Origin: an uncultured Flavobacteriaceae bacterium
GTDB taxonomy: Bacteria > Bacteroidota > Bacteroidia > Flavobacteriales > Flavobacteriaceae
Direction of reading: 5' to 3'
Length of the DNA stretch: 64,000 nt
Assembly (NCBI GenBank): GCA_937959395.1
Contig: CALGLR010000059.1
Location: 1 to 64,000 of the forward strand
Shown here one piece after another: positions 6,726-17,622 of the stretch. Under the pieces are notes generated by a model. It was given only the letters and a program-made list of their open reading frames with translations. It did no database searches and was not told the DNA's origin. The translations under genes were made by a program, and so were the position numbers. Each line of letters opens with the position of its first letter. Position 1 is the first letter of the stretch.

Positions 6726-9725
6726 TTATCTAACTATTATTTTTCTAGTAATCTTTTCTTTTCCATTTGAAACCCTTACAAGATAGAGTCCCCCTTGTAC
6801 GTCTTTTAAATTAACCGATTCATTAAAACCTAAAGTGTTTTGAAACCGTTTATCATAAACCCTTCTTCCTCTTACATCATAAACTAAAACGCTTATTTCA
6901 TCTCCAGGGGTTTCGATTAGCTTAATATTAAATAACCCTGAATTAGGGTTAGGATAAATACGTGTTTGAGAATCTAAATCGAGTTGAGCTGGCAATATAT
7001 TTACGGTATAATCTTCTATTTCGCCATCAAAATCATTTTCACAAGCAGAAGATGGTGATTGAAATTTTGTAGAAACTCGCATGGTCGTATTCCCTAAAAC
7101 AGCATCTATAGGAACCACTATAGGCAATGGAGAATTACTTGTAGGTCCATTTACCACATTAGTTGCGGTACCTAAATCATACTCCTCGTTGCCTTCAAAA
7201 ATGCAATTTTGATTCCAGTCTATCCAAACTTTACTTTCACATAAAAAATTTCCGAAAGTATTTATATTTACGGTTAAACCATATGGATTTGCTCGTTCAA
7301 TAGCTGTAGATAAATTCGTAAAATCACTATATCCTGAAGGCTTACCGTTATTTAAATTCTCTAATGTATTAAACGAAACACCTGTTATACTGGTTTGAAA
7401 ATCTGTATTTGCCACTGCATTACAAATGCCATCAATAACTTCTAAACCAATATTAGCAATACTATTTGTGACTGATGCTGATGTGCCAATAACTTCAAGA
7501 TTATAAATCCCTTGAGAAACATCTGTTAGACCGCTAACAGACATCGTAAATTCTTCAGAATTATTTAAACTACTTGAAGAAAAAATAACAGTTGAACCAG
7601 GAGGATTACCCATTACTGTAAAAACAGTGTCCTCAGCAAACCCATTAACTGTAGAAAACCTTAAGTTATATATTAACTCATCGACACCGCAAGCAACCTG
7701 TGAACCACTAGCATTACTTAAAGCAAAGGTAGGCATATTAGATATCGGGAAACTCTCACTCATTGCATAAAAAATATTATCTGTTGCTTCTACTATAATT
7801 CTAGCATTATTAGCTGGAGGAATGCCTGGTATAGTTATCGTTTCCAACCCATCATTATCAATATTAGTAGCTAAGGTAAACGGAAAAGTCACTCCATTAT
7901 CTACAGATAATTTAATAGTCACTTTTTGGCAATTTATTGTTGAATTATTAGTCTCTCCTACATTCCAACTTATATCTGCTTCTCCTGTTGAAGGCAAAGC
8001 TCCTGGGCTATTAGCTGTAAAGGGTAAAACGTTTTCTACAGTAATCCTCATTAAATCAAAACTAGTTTGTGCTCCCAATCCTAAACCACTTGGTTCCCTA
8101 TCTCTAACCGTAAGTGCCCAGTTTAATGTTCTAGACACTGTAGATACAGTTTCCCAGTCTTCATTAACTGTAGGATTTTCTTGCGTTAATTCTCCAGCCA
8201 CTACTCTACTAAACTTAGGAATATAACGATATGGGCTTGAATTAGGTTCTAAAGATCTATTCGTAGAACCTGTTGTTAAGGTTGGCCCAAAAGTAGTATT
8301 AGTAACAACACCATTATCTATTTGCTCCCAACAATAAGTTAAAGCGTCCCCTCCATTAGCATCTGTAGCGGTTCCCTTTAAAATATAAGCAGTTCCTGGA
8401 GGAATATTATAATCATTTCCAGCATTTGCAATCGGGGGCTCATTTGATATCACTGTCGTTTGTGCACAATTGTTTGGTGAAGTCTCTAAATTATCGAGTA
8501 TTTGTTTAATACTATAATAATGAAAATAAGAATCACTATGCAATTGCACATTGTTGTCTCCTGTAATACCGGCATAACCCATTATTGTTGTTCCGCTTCC
8601 TGGCTCTGCATTTACTCCTGTATTCTCTGTATTAAAAGCCCAAGTATGATTGGCTCCCATTTGATGGCCAATTTCATGAGCAACAAAATCGATATCAAAA
8701 TTATCACCTTCAGGAATTCCATCAGAAGGGGAAGTAATCCCGCTACCTTTTCTTCCATCTTCACAAACGCAACCTATGCAACCTGCGCTCCCTCCTCCTC
8801 CTGAGGCGCCAAACATATGGCCAATATCATAACTAGCCTCCCCTATAGTAGTTGTTAATGTCGATTGTAATTCATTATTCCAATTTGATATTGCAGAATA
8901 AGGATCCGTAGCTGCATTCGTATAAATTAATTGTGTGGCATCAACTAATTCAAATGTTACTGCCATATCTGTTTCAAAAACAGCATTAACTCTTGTCATT
9001 GTTGTATTAATAGCCGCAAGTGCTCCAGCAATTGTTCCACCATGATAAGCGGTATATTCTCCATTAACAGAGATTGCTAACTTAAATTTCCGAAGTAATT
9101 GATCATTAGCATCTCTAAGAGATGAACTTTCTCCCTTAGCAACCTGTTCCTTTTTAGAAAAATCCTCAACCATCCCACATACAAATTCAGGTAATTTATT
9201 ATCTGCTCTAGATAACCTATTATAAACAATATAATTATTTACATCTCCTGTAATAGGTTGCATAAAAACGGTAGGCTTATCTCTATAATCTATCATCGTA
9301 TTTATTCCACTAGGTGAAATACTTAATCGTAAAATTGCTTTATTATTAAGTCCATATCCTATATAAGATTTTATATCTGGATACTTATTAGACAATTCGG
9401 GTGAAAAATTAGAAGCTTCATAAATTTGAAATTGTTCAGTTTCCCCTTTTTCGTTAGGAATAGATATAATATTTGAATTCGTTTTATGACCTGTACCTCT
9501 TTGAGGTATATTTACTAAATCCTGTTTTAAGGTTTCAATATTTAATTGAAGTATTTTAAAATGATTCGTATCTAATTTATTAATTGAAATTGAATTTAAA
9601 CTCCCATTAGAAGTCGCAGATTTCCATGATCTATTTTGACCAAAAAGAGAAACCCCGATTAAAAAATGGAGTAATGCGAAAAAATATCTTGATTTTATTT
9701 TCAACACACACGCTTTAATATTCAT
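6726..9725 (-). CDS. Secreted reprolysin-like metalloprotease with GEVED and T9SS domains
   Basis: A 999-residue exported protein. It has an N-terminal signal sequence (residues about 10-30, ending LFGQ), a propeptide, a catalytic domain with the zinc motif HEIGHQMGANH (HExxH at 350-354, third ligand after GAN) followed by the Met-turn GTTIMGYAG, then Ig-like domains (IANAGNDYNIPPGTAYILKG), a GEVED domain (WIDWNQNCIFEGNEEYDLG ... DGEIEDYTV), and a C-terminal type IX sorting domain (IYPNPNSGLFNIKL ... KITRKIIVR). It should cross the outer membrane by T9SS and be released or attached to the surface as an extracellular protease. It has a shorter paralogue at 12260-14584. Confidence 0.92.
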   Translation of the reverse strand: MNIKACVLKIKSRYFFALLHFLIGVSLFGQNRSWKSATSNGSLNSISINKLDTNHFKILQLNIETLKQDLVNIPQRGTGHKTNSNIISIPNEKGETEQFQIYEASNFSPELSNKYPDIKSYIGYGLNNKAILRLSISPSGINTMIDYRDKPTVFMQPITGDVNNYIVYNRLSRADNKLPEFVCGMVEDFSKKEQVAKGESSSLRDANDQLLRKFKLAISVNGEYTAYHGGTIAGALAAINTTMTRVNAVFETDMAVTFELVDATQLIYTNAATDPYSAISNWNNELQSTLTTTIGEASYDIGHMFGASGGGGSAGCIGCVCEDGRKGSGITSPSDGIPEGDNFDIDFVAHEIGHQMGANHTWAFNTENTGVNAEPGSGTTIMGYAGITGDNNVQLHSDSYFHYYSIKQILDNLETSPNNCAQTTVISNEPPIANAGNDYNIPPGTAYILKGTATDANGGDALTYCWEQIDNGVVTNTTFGPTLTTGSTNRSLEPNSSPYRYIPKFSRVVAGELTQENPTVNEDWETVSTVSRTLNWALTVRDREPSGLGLGAQTSFDLMRITVENVLPFTANSPGALPSTGEADISWNVGETNNSTINCQKVTIKLSVDNGVTFPFTLATNIDNDGLETITIPGIPPANNARIIVEATDNIFYAMSESFPISNMPTFALSNASGSQVACGVDELIYNLRFSTVNGFAEDTVFTVMGNPPGSTVIFSSSSLNNSEEFTMSVSGLTDVSQGIYNLEVIGTSASVTNSIANIGLEVIDGICNAVANTDFQTSITGVSFNTLENLNNGKPSGYSDFTNLSTAIERANPYGLTVNINTFGNFLCESKVWIDWNQNCIFEGNEEYDLGTATNVVNGPTSNSPLPIVVPIDAVLGNTTMRVSTKFQSPSSACENDFDGEIEDYTVNILPAQLDLDSQTRIYPNPNSGLFNIKLIETPGDEISVLVYDVRGRRVYDKRFQNTLGFNESVNLKDVQGGLYLVRVSNGKEKITRKIIVR

Positions 9726-12259: not shown

Positions 12260-14584
12260 TTATTCAACGACTATTTTTCGTGTTTGTTTATTTATACCAT
12301 CCGAAATTTGTAACATATAAATCCCTGATTGTACAGCTCCTATATTAATAACTTCATTAAAATCTCCTGAGCTATTATAACGTTTATCGAAAATGCTTCT
12401 CCCCCTAATGTCAAAAACATTTATTATGATCTCATTAGTTAATGAATTATTCAGTTTTAAATTAAAAGAACCGTTATTAGGGTTTGGATATATAGCTAAG
12501 CCACTAAAACTAAAATCATCTACAGAAAGTGGTACCGTAGTCGTAAAATTATCTGACAAAGTATAAAATATATTATCGGCAGCCTCCACTAGTATTCTAG
12601 CTTCAGTTGTATCTGAAATAGATGGCACCGTTATCATTTCTGATCCATCGTTGGGAGTATTCCCAGCTAATGTAATTGGAAAACTAATACCTCCATCTGT
12701 AGAAAATTTAATATTTACCATTTGGCAATTAATTGTTGCATTGTTCGTTGTTCCTACATTCCAAGTAACATTTTCAAGACTTCCTCCTTCCCAAGAAGAT
12801 GGAGTAATTACAGTAAAAGGAGCACCTGATTCAACAGTTATCGTCATTGTATCAAAATCTGACTGAGGTGTTTGCCCAACACCTCCAACCTCTGAACGGT
12901 CTCTTACCGTTAATGCAAAATTTAATGTTCTGGCAATTGTAGATACCGTTTCCCAAGACGTATTATCTACTGTTTCCACTGGGTTAGACTCTGTTAACTG
13001 CCCATCTAAAACTCTACCATACATAGGCATATATCTATTTGGCGAAGTACTTGGTGGTCGAGATCTAAACGTAGCGCCTGAAGTTCTTGTTGGCCCAAAA
13101 GCACTGGTTGGCGAGACACCATTATCTATTTGTTCCCAAGTATAAGTTAAAACATCTCCTGCATTTGCATCTGTTGCACTTCCTTTAAGAATAAAAGCTG
13201 TTCCATTTGGAATCGCAAAATCTGATCCTGCATTAGCAACTGGAGGGTTATTTGTTATGGCTGTTGTAATCGCACAATCATTTGGAGCGCTATCAACATT
13301 ATCTAGTATTTGAGAAATACTAAAATAATGAAAGTATGGATCACTATGATCTTGCACGTCATCAGGCCCTGTAATTCCTGCATATCCCATAATGGTGGTT
13401 CCGCTACCTGGTTCTGCATTTACTCCTGTACCTTCTGATGCAAATGACCAAGTATGATTTGCTCCCATTTGATGTCCAACTTCGTGTGGTACGAAATCTA
13501 TATCAAAAAAGTCAGACATATATGGCCCTCCATCATTATCAACAAAATTATGTTGAGAATAACCAGAACCTTTACCTCGAGTTCTAGGTGGATCAACAGT
13601 GGCATCACAAACGCAACCTATACAACCAGCATTTCCATTAGTACCTCCTGCATTATAAACAAGTAAATGACCTATGTCATAATCATCACTACCCACGACA
13701 GCTGTAAGATTGGTCATCAATTCACTATTTAGATTTCCTCCATAAGGATCTGGAAATGTTGGTGAGTATATTAAATCAATCGCAGGATCGTCTGCAGTAT
13801 CTACTAATACGAAAGTCATAGCCATATCAACTTCAAACACTTCATTCATTCTATTTAATGTAGATACAAGCTGAGCAAGAGCATCAGCTCTATTATCTCC
13901 ATTTCCTGCATTTCCATCATCCCAAAAATTAGTATATTCTTGATTAACAGATATTGCAATTCTGTAGGTTCTCAATAATTGATCATTAGCATCTCTAGCT
14001 GAAGTTGTGTTTACTACTTTTTCTGTTATACCAAAATCTTCAGTTAAACATTCAAATGTATCAGAAGAATTTAACTTGGCATTTTTATTATAAATTATAT
14101 ATTGTCCATTAGAGACTTTAGTTATTGGCTGAAAGTAAGTTGTTATTTTTCCTGGTTCTGAAATCATTCCCTTAACACCTAAAGGAGTTACACTAAACCG
14201 AATTCTAGCTCCTGAATTATCAGTTCTTGACCCCAAATAAGTTTTTATATTAGAATGTTGCTCCATATTATCATTTGAGGAAAAAATAGAAGTTTCTACC
14301 ACTCTATAACGTTGCATTTTACCATCATTATTTGGAAAATCAATAGCAACATTAGAGACTCCGTTAGATTGTCTTCTTAGTGGCGCATCCTGTATTTTTT
14401 CTTTGAGCAATTCAATATTTAGACTTAATAATGAGTAGTGTTTAGAATCTAAATTTTTAAGTGATACGCCTTTGGTACCATCAATAAATGAAGTTTTTGA
14501 CCACAAACTAACATCTTGAGCTAATGAAACGCTCGAAATAAGCATGATTGATAGTGAAAAAACATTAAGTAATTTTATTTTCAT
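12260..14584 (-). CDS. Secreted reprolysin-like metalloprotease with T9SS domain
   Basis: A 774-residue paralogue of the 999-residue protease two genes away. Signal sequence at the start (LLNVFSLSIMLISSVSLAQ), propeptide, zinc motif HEVGHQMGANH (HExxH at 367-371), Met-turn GTTIMGYAG, Ig-like region (VANAGSDFAIPNGTAFILKG) and a C-terminal T9SS sorting domain (IYPNPNNGSFNLKL ... QTRKIVVE). It lacks the GEVED domain. The catalytic and Ig regions align with the paralogue throughout. A truncated third copy of the tail lies just upstream at 14724-14837, so this locus has undergone tandem duplication. Confidence 0.92.
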   Translation of the reverse strand: MKIKLLNVFSLSIMLISSVSLAQDVSLWSKTSFIDGTKGVSLKNLDSKHYSLLSLNIELLKEKIQDAPLRRQSNGVSNVAIDFPNNDGKMQRYRVVETSIFSSNDNMEQHSNIKTYLGSRTDNSGARIRFSVTPLGVKGMISEPGKITTYFQPITKVSNGQYIIYNKNAKLNSSDTFECLTEDFGITEKVVNTTSARDANDQLLRTYRIAISVNQEYTNFWDDGNAGNGDNRADALAQLVSTLNRMNEVFEVDMAMTFVLVDTADDPAIDLIYSPTFPDPYGGNLNSELMTNLTAVVGSDDYDIGHLLVYNAGGTNGNAGCIGCVCDATVDPPRTRGKGSGYSQHNFVDNDGGPYMSDFFDIDFVPHEVGHQMGANHTWSFASEGTGVNAEPGSGTTIMGYAGITGPDDVQDHSDPYFHYFSISQILDNVDSAPNDCAITTAITNNPPVANAGSDFAIPNGTAFILKGSATDANAGDVLTYTWEQIDNGVSPTSAFGPTRTSGATFRSRPPSTSPNRYMPMYGRVLDGQLTESNPVETVDNTSWETVSTIARTLNFALTVRDRSEVGGVGQTPQSDFDTMTITVESGAPFTVITPSSWEGGSLENVTWNVGTTNNATINCQMVNIKFSTDGGISFPITLAGNTPNDGSEMITVPSISDTTEARILVEAADNIFYTLSDNFTTTVPLSVDDFSFSGLAIYPNPNNGSFNLKLNNSLTNEIIINVFDIRGRSIFDKRYNSSGDFNEVINIGAVQSGIYMLQISDGINKQTRKIVVE

Positions 14585-14723
14585 AGTAAATTATTTTTAA
14601 ACTATTTGAATAACAAAATAGTTTGGGGTTAATACTAATTTAATTAATACAAATTTAATCATTATTTTATACATTAAGTTATTTAAAATGAATTAGATAA
14701 CTTAATAATAAATCGAAAAACAC

Positions 14724-14837
14724 TTATTCAACGACTATTTTTCGTGTTTGCTTATTTATACCATCCGAAAGTTGCAACATATAAATACCTGACTGTACAG
14801 CACCTATATTAATAACTTCGTTAAAGTTTTCTATCAT
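14724..14837 (-). pseudogene. Amputated C-terminus of a third metalloprotease
   Basis: The minus strand encodes ENFNEVINIGAVQSGIYMLQ followed by LSDGINKQTRKIVVE and a stop, nearly identical to the last 35 residues of the 774-residue protease. Similarity continues about 20 bases past the stop codon. Everything upstream is replaced by the IS110-family element. The rest of the third gene is not found on the far side of the element, so a deletion went with or followed the insertion. Confidence 0.85.
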
Positions 14838-14845
14838 ATAACTAA

Positions 14846-16162
14846 CTAAGCCACATTATTATAATTAGCAAGTAATATTTCTGTTTTTTCTTTTAATTTT
14901 TCAAGTTGTATTAATCTATTCCTTAAATATTCTTCTTTGTTTTTGGTAATATATTCAGGGTTAAAATCGACTTTATCAGTAACCATCTTATAATAGATTG
15001 CAGCTAATTTTCTAGCAGTAGCAACTACTGCTTGTTTCCCTCCGCTTTTAGCTTTCTTCCTTCTTATGTAATCCCCAATTGGATTTTGTGCAGCCCATAA
15101 TGCACCAGCTGCATCTCTAAATGCTTGACCAGCCTTGTTTTTCTTTCTCTTTACCTTGCTTGATATTACTTTGCCTCCTGTAATCTTGTTGTTAGGCACC
15201 ACATTAAGCCATGATAAAAATTGTTTTTCAGTGGGAAATTTTTCTTTTAGATTTATTCCTGTTTCAGAGAATATAGTAAGTGCGGTAATTTCTTTAATGC
15301 CATATATTTTGGTCACTTCAACTCCCAAAGCTTCATATAAATATTGAGATACATTAAAGTTTGGATTGTTTTTAGACTTTTGAATTTTATCTGCTTTTTT
15401 ATTTGATGAAGAATTACTTGTCATTGTTTTAATTACTTTTTCGCTTTCAATATCACATTGATTAAGTTGTCCTTGTAAAAAAAGATAATGCTTATAAGCA
15501 ATCCGTAGATTAAATATTTGCTCTTCTCGCCAATTGCCTTCTAAGGATTTTATTAGCGTTTCTTCTGATGCTTTAATTCTCCAATCTCTATATTGAACCA
15601 ATGTTTTGGGATCTCGTTCTCCTTCTAATATCTTGGTTATAATTGCTGTTCCTGTCTTTCCATTAATATCTCTTATCACATTATTTAGTTTAATATTCAT
15701 TTGCTCTAAGGCTTTTTGCATTCTTTGCGTTTCTCTAGTCATTTGCCTAATGATATGCTTTCTTTGTCTTACATAATTACGTAAAGAACGCGTAAGGTTG
15801 TCTGGTTGAAAACTAGCTCGTAATAAACCAAAAGTGTGTAACTCTTGAAGCCAGCGTGCATCGCTTACATCACTCTTTCTTCCTGGAACATTTTTTACAT
15901 GGTAAGCATTTACTAAATAAACTTCAAATCCGTAATCCAGTAAAATAGTGTACAAATCAAACCAATAGACCCCTGTAGATTCCATTGCAATGGTTTCTAC
16001 TTTACAAGCTATTAACCATTTTGCTAATTGATGCAAATCTCTTGTAAAACCCTGAAAGGTTCTTACAGATCTTTTTGATCGATCTTCGGGAACTGCCACA
16101 ACATGTTCCTTTGAGGAGATATCAATTCCTGCTGCATTTAAATTTACTAATTTTGTTGCCAT
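14846..16162 (-). CDS. IS110-family transposase (DEDD recombinase)
   Basis: This 438-residue transposase has the N-terminal RuvC-like DEDD domain (GIDISSKEHVVAVPEDRSKR, IAMESTGVYWFDLYTILLDY, VNAYHVKNVPGRKSDVSDAR) and the C-terminal transposase_20 domain (EVTKIYGIKEITALTIFSE, WLNVVPNNKITGGKV) containing the serine region. IS110 enzymes work as recombinases guided by a structured bridge RNA encoded in the element. The gene looks intact. Its start is the ATG whose complement ends at 16162. Confidence 0.95.
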   Translation of the reverse strand: MATKLVNLNAAGIDISSKEHVVAVPEDRSKRSVRTFQGFTRDLHQLAKWLIACKVETIAMESTGVYWFDLYTILLDYGFEVYLVNAYHVKNVPGRKSDVSDARWLQELHTFGLLRASFQPDNLTRSLRNYVRQRKHIIRQMTRETQRMQKALEQMNIKLNNVIRDINGKTGTAIITKILEGERDPKTLVQYRDWRIKASEETLIKSLEGNWREEQIFNLRIAYKHYLFLQGQLNQCDIESEKVIKTMTSNSSSNKKADKIQKSKNNPNFNVSQYLYEALGVEVTKIYGIKEITALTIFSETGINLKEKFPTEKQFLSWLNVVPNNKITGGKVISSKVKRKKNKAGQAFRDAAGALWAAQNPIGDYIRRKKAKSGGKQAVVATARKLAAIYYKMVTDKVDFNPEYITKNKEEYLRNRLIQLEKLKEKTEILLANYNNVA

Positions 16163-16330
16163 AATATATCTTTTAATAGGAATGGTTAAATCAGCATACT
16201 TAAAATTGAATATTCTATCATAAGGGATCTATTCAGTCACCAATAGATAATCTAACAGTATGCATACCTAAACTGAGTTATGGGCTTTAAAGCACCAATG
16301 TTTTTTAAAGTTTGATTTAACTGTTCCTGT
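16163..16330 (-). ncRNA. Candidate bridge-RNA region of the IS110 element
   Basis: Non-coding leader directly upstream of the transposase. GGAATGGTTAAATCA (16179-16193) pairs with TGATTTAACTGTTCC (16313-16327), 13 of 15 positions. GCATACT (16194-16200) pairs with AGTATGC (16258-16264). Between these lies a hairpin TCTATT/AATAGA with an eight-base loop (16228-16247), and GCTTTAAAGC at about 16284. In the IS110 group the bridge RNA is encoded at this position; that this segment is the RNA is inference. Confidence 0.4.
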
Positions 16331-16436
16331 TTTTAATACAATAAAAATAAGTAATTAAGTCTGTTATCAATATAGATAATATGGGCTTGACCATTGATGG
16401 ACTTAGTTCGATATAAAGATGTTAGTCATCAAAAAT

Positions 16437-16556
16437 CGTCAATTCGAGTGATTTTTTGCAACAAAATGAAAAAAAATAGTATCGAGAATAGGTTTTTTGA
16501 TATGAAAATCACTATTCTCGATACACTTCTCCTTAAGTCAAATCACTCGAATTGAT
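16437..16556. repeat. Nested perfect inverted repeats downstream of hemE
   Basis: The outer arms TCAATTCGAGTGATTT (16439-16454) and AAATCACTCGAATTGA (16540-16555) match perfectly. The inner arms GTATCGAGAATAG (16479-16491) and CTATTCTCGATAC (16512-16524) also match perfectly. The structure reads as two inverted copies of one shorter unit, like a REPIN or REP doublet. It lies 32 bases past the hemE stop and could also act as its terminator. It probably lies outside the IS110 element. Confidence 0.75.
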
Positions 16557-16587
16557 GTAATTTCTTATATAGAATTCGCGTTAAAAA

Positions 16588-17622
16588 CTATACAGAAACG
16601 GTGCTATATTCCTTTACTGCATCTATAAATGCTTTAGCGTTATCTAATGGGATATTAGGGAGTATTCCATGACCTAGGTTTACAATGTATTTATCTTTAC
16701 CAAACTCATTAATCATTTGGTGCACCATTTTTTTAATTTCTGAAGGCGGTGAGAATAAACGAGTAGGATCAAAATTACCTTGTAAAGTAATATTTCCGCC
16801 AGTTAAATAGCGTGCATTCCTAGCCGAACATGTCCAGTCTATACCTAAAGCACTGGCTCCAGATTTTGCCATTTTATCTAAAGCAAACCAACACCCTTTT
16901 CCAAAAGCAATAACCGGAGTTTCGTCTTTAAGAGCATCTATAATTTGTTGAATGTATTGCCATGAAAATTCTTGATAATCTACAGGAGATAACATACCTC
17001 CCCAAGAATCAAAAACTTGAACAGCATTAACACCAGCTTTTACTTTTTCTTTAAGATAAGCAATAGTGGTATCGGTTATTTTTTGTAATAATTGATGAGC
17101 AGCAATAGGATTAGTGAAACAAAACTCTTTGGCTTTATCAAAGTTTTTACTGCCTTGGCCTTGCACACAGTAGCAAAGAATTGTCCATGGAGAACCAGCA
17201 AACCCTATTAAAGGAATTTCATTGTTTAATTTCTCTTTAGTGGCTTTTATGGCTTCATAAACATAACTTAATTCCTCTTTTACATTAGGAACAATTACGT
17301 TATCTACATCTTTTTGTGAACGAATTGGATTTGGTAAATAAGGTCCAAAATTAGGCTTCATTTGCACCTCAATATTCATTGCTTGAGGAATCACTAAAAT
17401 GTCGCAAAACAATATCGCAGCATCCATTCCGTATCGGCGAATAGGTTGCACAGTAATCTCACTTGCTAATTCTGGTGTTTGGCATCGCGTAAAGAAATCG
17501 TATTTTTCCTTTATTGCCATAAATTCCGGAAGGTAACGTCCTGCTTGACGCATCATCCAAACTGGAGGACGTTCTACGGTTTCTCCTTTTAATGCTCTTA
17601 AAAATAAATCGTTTTTTATCAT
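16588..17622 (-). CDS. hemE: Uroporphyrinogen decarboxylase
   Basis: Decarboxylates uroporphyrinogen III to coproporphyrinogen III in heme synthesis. The 344 residues include the N-terminal signature [17 protein letters not shown] (19-35), [11 protein letters not shown], the second signature region [20 protein letters not shown], and [16 protein letters not shown] at the C-terminus. It is last in the minus-strand hemA-hemCD-hemE series but is separated from hemCD by a four-helix-bundle gene and a short repeat. Confidence 0.97.

Follow-up and report, generated by a model that had tools for sequence, protein, structure and literature searches.

The bridge RNA of IS621 (PMC11208160; Durrant 2024, Hiraizumi 2024) is encoded upstream of the transposase and places the target loop before the donor loop; its left guides repeat the top strand, and its guides include the core. 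For the seekRNAs of the IS1111 group, PMC11187229 reports a top-strand match 5′ of the bottom-strand match, and the reverse in ISEc21 of the IS110 group, so that each of the two families has its own guide order. Apart from some exceptions, that study places IS1111 RNAs downstream of the transposase gene and IS110 RNAs upstream of it, and it gives transposase lengths of 330-350 amino acids (aa) for IS1111 and 395-455 aa for the subgroup with IS110 itself. PMC12045711 likens IS110 to box C/D and TIGR guide RNAs, with tandem guides between structured ends and binding by a Nop-like domain. Here we analyse an IS110-group insertion sequence in a 64,000-nucleotide stretch of an uncultured Flavobacteriaceae genome (assembly GCA_937959395.1, contig CALGLR010000059.1, positions 1-64,000), hereafter the window, whose coordinates are used throughout. 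Judged from its sequence and from its relatives, the region upstream of the transposase gene is very probably a bridge RNA (seekRNA) with two loops, reading the target and the joined element ends, as a preliminary description of this DNA had proposed.

The element lies on the minus strand, with these parts:

14831-16401, minus strand: IS110-group element, window copy (12 left and 15 right genome junctions, all copies diverging at the same base)
14831-14842, minus strand: right end GTTATATGATAG, including the core AG
16391-16401, minus strand: left end TCCATCAATGG
14846-16162, minus strand: transposase, 438 aa, DEDD_Tnp_IS110 and Transposase_20 (Pfam PF01548, E 1.2e-27; PF02371, E 1.2e-07)

The host genome (4.3 Mb, 130 contigs) carries about 15 near-identical copies, with contigs breaking within the element, and we obtained the junctions by reading contig ends in register. 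Copies diverge at identical bases, on the left between AG and TCCATCAATGG and on the right after TTATATGATAG. Because AG is common to both sides, it is taken as the core. Counting the right-end core copy (14831-14832), the element is 1571 bases long; the left-end core copy occupies 16402-16403. The preliminary description had carried the region out to 16435, which is too far: the last base of the element is 16401, and beyond it (16402-16435) lies DNA of the flanking target. The non-coding part comprises 239 bases upstream of the transposase gene (16163-16401) and 15 downstream. The transposase has the DEDD type and the PF01548 and PF02371 domains of the IS110/IS1111 superfamily, scores 236 bits against NCBIfam NF033542 ('IS110 family RNA-guided transposase', cut-off 140), and has relatives of solved structure in ISCro4 (E 5.7e-10) and IS621 (E 1.7e-8). 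Further superfamily features are the specific target, the short core shared by both sides at the 12 left and 15 right junctions, and the absence of target duplication, an interrupted gene rejoining in frame.

Within the leader, the predicted RNA reads, from its 5′ end:

16175-16329, minus strand: bridge RNA (seekRNA), structured core only (from pair counts and a covariance model)
16313-16327, minus strand: outer stem P1, 5′ arm (double-sided changes in 7 of 13 pairs)
16308-16311, minus strand: target-binding loop closing stem, 5′ arm, ACUU (same place in most of 30 elements)
16300-16306, minus strand: putative right target guide AAAAAAC, 5′ of the hairpin (clade-wide fixed-register complementarity; weak in the window element alone)
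16282-16296, minus strand: target-binding loop hairpin, GG(U)GC..GCCC (pattern and pair counts)
16273-16281, minus strand: left target guide AUAACUCAG, with the AG core as its last bases (the slot varies while the blocks around it are constant; matches the copies' left flanks)
16266-16269, minus strand: target-binding loop closing stem, 3′ arm, AGGU
16257-16263, minus strand: donor-binding loop closing stem, 5′ arm, GCAUACU (double-sided changes in 5 of 7 pairs)
16224-16241, minus strand: donor-binding loop hairpin, GG(U)GA..UCCC (pattern and pair counts)
16215-16223, minus strand: left donor guide UUAUGAUAG (matches the right end, ..TTATATGATAG; tracks the right end in relatives)
16194-16200, minus strand: donor-binding loop closing stem, 3′ arm, AGUAUGC
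16179-16193, minus strand: outer stem P1, 3′ arm (pair counts)

Conservation of the leader extends through the window element and eight relatives (64-93% aa identity); one slot in it varies, and another fits the right end. Across these nine sequences, the structure read from the window pairs in 93.8% of alignment cells, and 13 of 32 pairs are changed on both sides (shuffle mean 5.7; 0 of 500 shuffles had as many). Sliding the partners by one to three columns brought pairing below 50%. The alignment was built without structure, but the structure came from a single row, and this gives it an advantage over the shifted versions. Pairing among close copies had been named beforehand as one point on which the proposal could fail, and the compensatory changes found among the relatives argue for it. 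The best-supported helices by double changes were those already picked out from the single sequence, namely the 15-base paired region, in which 13 of 15 positions pair, and the adjacent 7-bp helix. Two internal hairpins had also been described; they exist, but what is conserved in them is a short stem with a bulge, GG(U)GC/GCCC in one and GG(U)GA/UCCC in the other, and not simply a hairpin with an 8-base loop. The repeat ATGGGCTT is present on the plus strand at 16280 and 16381, each one base off the position first given, with a third plus-strand occurrence at 8231.

Both loops share the form slot-NNN-GG(U)GN..NCCC-(G)-slot. Across 30 elements, the target-loop closing stem varies in sequence (AACC/GGUU, AGCC/GGCU, UGCC/GGCA, GGUC/GACC), and the hairpin varies at pair 2 (GC 27, AT 3) and pair 4 (CG 16, GC 10, TA 2, AT 1, GT 1), although the hairpin counts are no independent test because the pattern search required those pairs. 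A covariance model of the RNA, R1, scores the window RNA at E 2.7e-43 and at E <= 0.01 finds it at loci of other phyla unseen by the model (13 of 37, and 7 of 20 further loci); alphaproteobacterial loci were mostly missed and were recognised through the hairpin pattern instead. In 299 genomes of the family, R1 matched two, the window's own and one other (L155), where a diverged RNA has no adjoining transposase gene in the portion inspected and is possibly a remnant. A search of viral contigs for relatives found none. In a Paenibacillus relative of 30% identity (L157), the same loop form is present and the left slot has an 8-base match to the left flank (by eye), so the form may be older than this clade.

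Of the four guides expected of a non-coding RNA that reads a target and its own ends, three were found in the sequence. Loop bases had been proposed for comparison with the junctions, where a lack of any match would have counted against the proposal, and two guides emerge directly from this comparison: the left target guide matches left flanks, and the left donor guide matches the right end. Taken with its preceding C, the left target guide (CAUAACUCAG) scores 6 to 10 against the 10 bases left of the 12 junctions, matches that are not independent because most lie in related repeats; it reaches 10/10 at L051, an interrupted coding gene, and 9/10 at L054. At three further loci (L084, L085 and L091), inspection by eye gave no clean left-target match with an AG core. 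The donor slot and the right end change together in relatives (TATAGTAG, TTTGTAAG, TTAGGAG, TTGGGAG, TGAGTAG, TTGAAAG); the relatives' right ends were located by the best slot match, but they coincide with an invariant motif (GTTNC or GTTAT, followed by the match) and sit at a plausible place after the gene.

The right target guide was sought across the clade. From a work table of 49 elements, we tested the 23 in which the target-loop hairpin was found and the right end was usable. Left out were those with the same guide or a near-same element (L065, L066, L070, L075, L080, L147), those without a usable right end, partial or in tandem (L067, L071, L083, L084, L086, L090, L091, L092, L145, L153), and those whose target-loop hairpin was not found or was unclear by pattern (L072, L073, L077, L078, L089, L093, L134, L139, L143, L148). 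The 18 bases 5′ of the hairpin were compared with the core plus right target, and right targets were redealt among elements sharing the same core. With a free register (five offsets), summed complementarity was 129 against 111.9 ± 4.1 (0/20000 permutations). In a fixed register, offset 2 gave 116 against 90.6 ± 4.7 (0/5000), offset 3 was reached by 47/5000 and offset 1 by 305/5000, and the remainder showed nothing. The fixed-register signal persisted without the core (89 against 63.7, 0/20000), in 16 non-redundant elements (59.5 against 40.8, 0/20000), after removal of L149, L152 and L088 (50 against 33.8, 3/20000), after removal of the window element (2/20000), and in AG-core (12 elements, 1/20000) and AA-core elements (11 elements, 75/20000) taken alone. 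An element's own right target ranked first in 8 of 16 and first or second in 11 of 16. The place of the right target guide in the clade is thereby shown, and the target loop appears, from these comparisons, to run right guide 5′, hairpin, left guide 3′, the reverse of IS621.

The main alternative keeps the bridge RNA and puts the right target guide 3′ of the left one, as in IS621, with the 5′ complementarity as a by-product. This order is the published one for IS621 and ISEc21 (PMC11208160, PMC11187229), but in the 23 elements the bases 3′ of the left guide gave no signal of complementarity to the right target (133 against 131.3 ± 2.4, 5430/20000), whereas the 5′ side gave 0/20000, with the signal in a single register; we consider it improbable. 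An earlier candidate for the right target guide was discarded: CAAACYU, next to 16308, occupies the place that forms the loop closing stem in relatives. In AA-core elements of Proteobacteria, flanks of both sides fit an IS3-family reading frame, ..CTTAAAAAA/GGCC.., which we take to be IS3 orfA. L136, L141, L144, L146, L150, L152 and others lie within the apparent first frame of IS3-family elements, where the A run codes LKK.

Several observations weigh against a bridge RNA with its right guide in the 5′ slot. As a single sequence, the leader has an unremarkable minimum-energy fold (z = -1.59; 15 of 200 shuffles fold equally well), and at the gathering score no Rfam family matches the RNA, the only Rfam match within the window being a tRNA; low-score matches near the leader look like chance. 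It was the left guide that served to locate the left junctions of distant relatives, which makes their matches circular in part. In the window element alone, right-guide complementarity is weak, averaging 4.2/7 over 15 copies against 2.44 in random window 7-mers; these flanks are not independent, because 12 of 15 begin GTT, which is also the ending of the dispersed repeat, and the guide base opposite the first G of GTT is A, a mismatch. The window's right target entered the clade test as GTTTATAATA, the form of 3 of 15 right flanks. For two elements, L068 and L152, the true right target comes 13th of 16 when the register is fixed, although L152 fits one base over. Finally, in 20 elements the bases 5′ of the donor hairpin and 3′ of the left donor guide showed no complementarity to the left end beyond permutation. 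CUAUUGGUGACU, compared with the left end as a right donor guide, was rejected: AUUGGUGA is constant while left ends vary, and it gave no test signal.

The targets of the window element bear on the remaining alternatives. One flank of the window copy is:

16402-16416, minus strand: left flank, target TTATATCGAACTAAG (end of the dispersed repeat)

Judged from the junctions, the element usually inserts at one end of a palindromic repeat that is dispersed in the genome, and most left junctions lie there. Other IS110 elements use repetitive extragenic palindromic (REP) sequences, comparable to insertion at the end of a dispersed repeat. The repeat is about 190 bases long (16402-16590 in the window), with inverted arms at 16439-16454/16540-16555 and 16479-16501/16502-16524. 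Fourteen element-free places hold the left-flank repeat, mostly reading TTTAT(R)TCGAACT(S)AGGTT or near it and then diverging. A non-repeat target is seen on contig C31 (L051), which ends in a coding gene interrupted at CATAACTCAG^AAAACTTT. This gene half and the window's right flank join in frame and read through a tail of the type IX secretion system (T9SS) type, closely resembling the C-terminal end of the neighbouring 774-aa metallopeptidase (12260-14584, identified through Pfam). The two halves (window 14700-14830, and L051) belong to a close paralogue of that C-terminal end; split by the element, they are now on contigs C59 and C31. The end of a protease gene had been given as the target; this holds for one side, where the right flank is a T9SS gene fragment, but the left flank is the dispersed repeat. 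The flanks of the window copy therefore stem, on this evidence, from two different targets, whether by recombination between copies or by misassembly. Elsewhere in the genome, one right flank (L049) begins TCCATCA, just as the element's left end does, as though the site had been picked by the donor guide. Tandem copies are seen at L145, where the target and left end of a second copy come after the right end, and at L067, where another left end follows the right end directly; the two left ends at L067 are unlike in their first three bases past the core.

That much of this genome's target set is one repeat family, so that the left matches are not 12 independent events, would suit a very unlikely alternative in which the flank matches are captured target sequence, pieces of the insertion site carried by the element; against it, the non-repeat insertion at L051 matches 10/10, in other phyla these slots match targets that are unrelated, and the right guide complements its target instead of repeating it. 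Equally unlikely is that the leader regulates the transposase mRNA in cis, for example in translation control, and is no guide RNA: it lies directly upstream of the start codon and its conservation shows strong structure, but the relatives differ in just those slots in which each element matches its own target and end.

For a bridge RNA, we propose the following course. The RNA would be transcribed with or ahead of the transposase and fold into an outer stem bearing two loops, the first reading the target and the second the element's joined ends, each with two guide slots set apart by a short bulged hairpin. Of the target-loop slots, the one at the 3′ side repeats the left target strand and would pair with the bottom strand, and the 5′ one would complement the top strand of the right target; in the donor loop, the 3′ slot would read the element's right end, which it matches. 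By analogy with IS621 (PMC11208160), we infer that the transposase binds the RNA and that the element is excised as a circle, one loop of the RNA holding the circle junction (GATAG-TCC) and the other loop the target. Both target guides include or touch the AG core, where the transposase would exchange strands, so that the circle would insert without target duplication.

The element termini suggest how the left end might be recognised. Inverted repeats link left and right ends across the clade (the longest exact repeats sum to 189; exchanging the right ends gives 138.8 ± 5.6, 0/5000). Subterminal inverted repeats of 6-12 bases, where the IS110 group is expected to have none or very short ones, stand at a fixed place in 18 of 23 elements, 30-35 bases inside the left core and 2-7 inside the right; the window element has 5 bases only there, ATAAC. 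The first 32 left-end bases are more palindromic than shuffled sequence (105; shuffles 84.9 ± 4.3, at most 100 in 500). AAGCCCATATTAT, considered as the window's subterminal repeats, was dropped, being off the clade's place and having a partner partly inside the transposase gene. We tentatively suggest, with rather more doubt than conviction, a large IS110-group clade in which the bridge RNA is circularly permuted and recognition of the left end needs no RNA guide, relying on the palindrome and the fixed-distance subterminal repeats. As part of the same tentative reading, the clade would span Bacteroidota, Thermodesulfobacteriota, Chloroflexota, Planctomycetota, Cyanobacteriota and Pseudomonadota, and Bacillota by one example. 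If so, each loop would run right guide, hairpin, left guide, with its open and closed ends swapped relative to IS621, and, the left end being recognised without a guide, only three guides would need programming. The clade would add candidate programmable recombinases with longer proteins; its RNA is compact and clearly bounded, its natural targets are many and one donor guide is missing, which makes left-end recognition directly testable.

Compared with known systems, the window element resembles IS621 in its upstream RNA, its target loop first, its left guides repeating the top strand and the core within its guides. It differs in guide order (left guide, hairpin, right guide in IS621; right guide, hairpin, left guide here), in transposase length (328 aa against 438 aa) and in the right donor guide, which in IS621 lies 3′ in the donor loop and was not found in the 20 elements of its clade. 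With ISEc21 (IS110 group; Siddiquee 2024) it shares the upstream RNA and the lack of target duplication, and has the opposite guide order. With the IS1111-group seekRNAs of ISEc11, ISPa11 and ISKpn4 (Siddiquee 2024) it shares the top-strand segment 5′ of the bottom-strand segment and, as a clade, the subterminal inverted repeats, whereas IS1111 RNAs are downstream and its own is upstream, of a 438-aa transposase. Tandem guides, two structured ends and a Nop-like domain also recall box C/D and TIGR guide RNAs, as PMC12045711 proposes for IS110. Titles, abstracts and text passages of open papers, in a search that did not extend to figures (among them Extended Data Fig. 10c of PMC11208160, with three IS110-group RNAs: ISPpu10, ISAar29 and ISHne5), supplements, preprints or subscription papers, yielded no report of an upstream-encoded RNA with this guide order. 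A transposase tree did not settle IS110 against IS1111, its outgroups being on very long branches and no assured IS1111 sequence being included. Trait by trait, the long upstream non-coding region and a transposase exceeding the 330-350 aa of IS1111 are those of the IS110 group, but the left guide is not 5′ of the right as in that group; the right guide 5′ of the left is the IS1111 arrangement, without its downstream non-coding region (15 bases here). If the permuted clade is real, it would break the published link between guide order and family, and guide order and RNA position would evolve separately, the clade combining an RNA position and a transposase of IS110 type with IS1111-type guide order and repeats. 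As read from these sequences, RNA place and protein length are IS110-like, guide order is IS1111-like, and the end repeats of the clade lean to IS1111.
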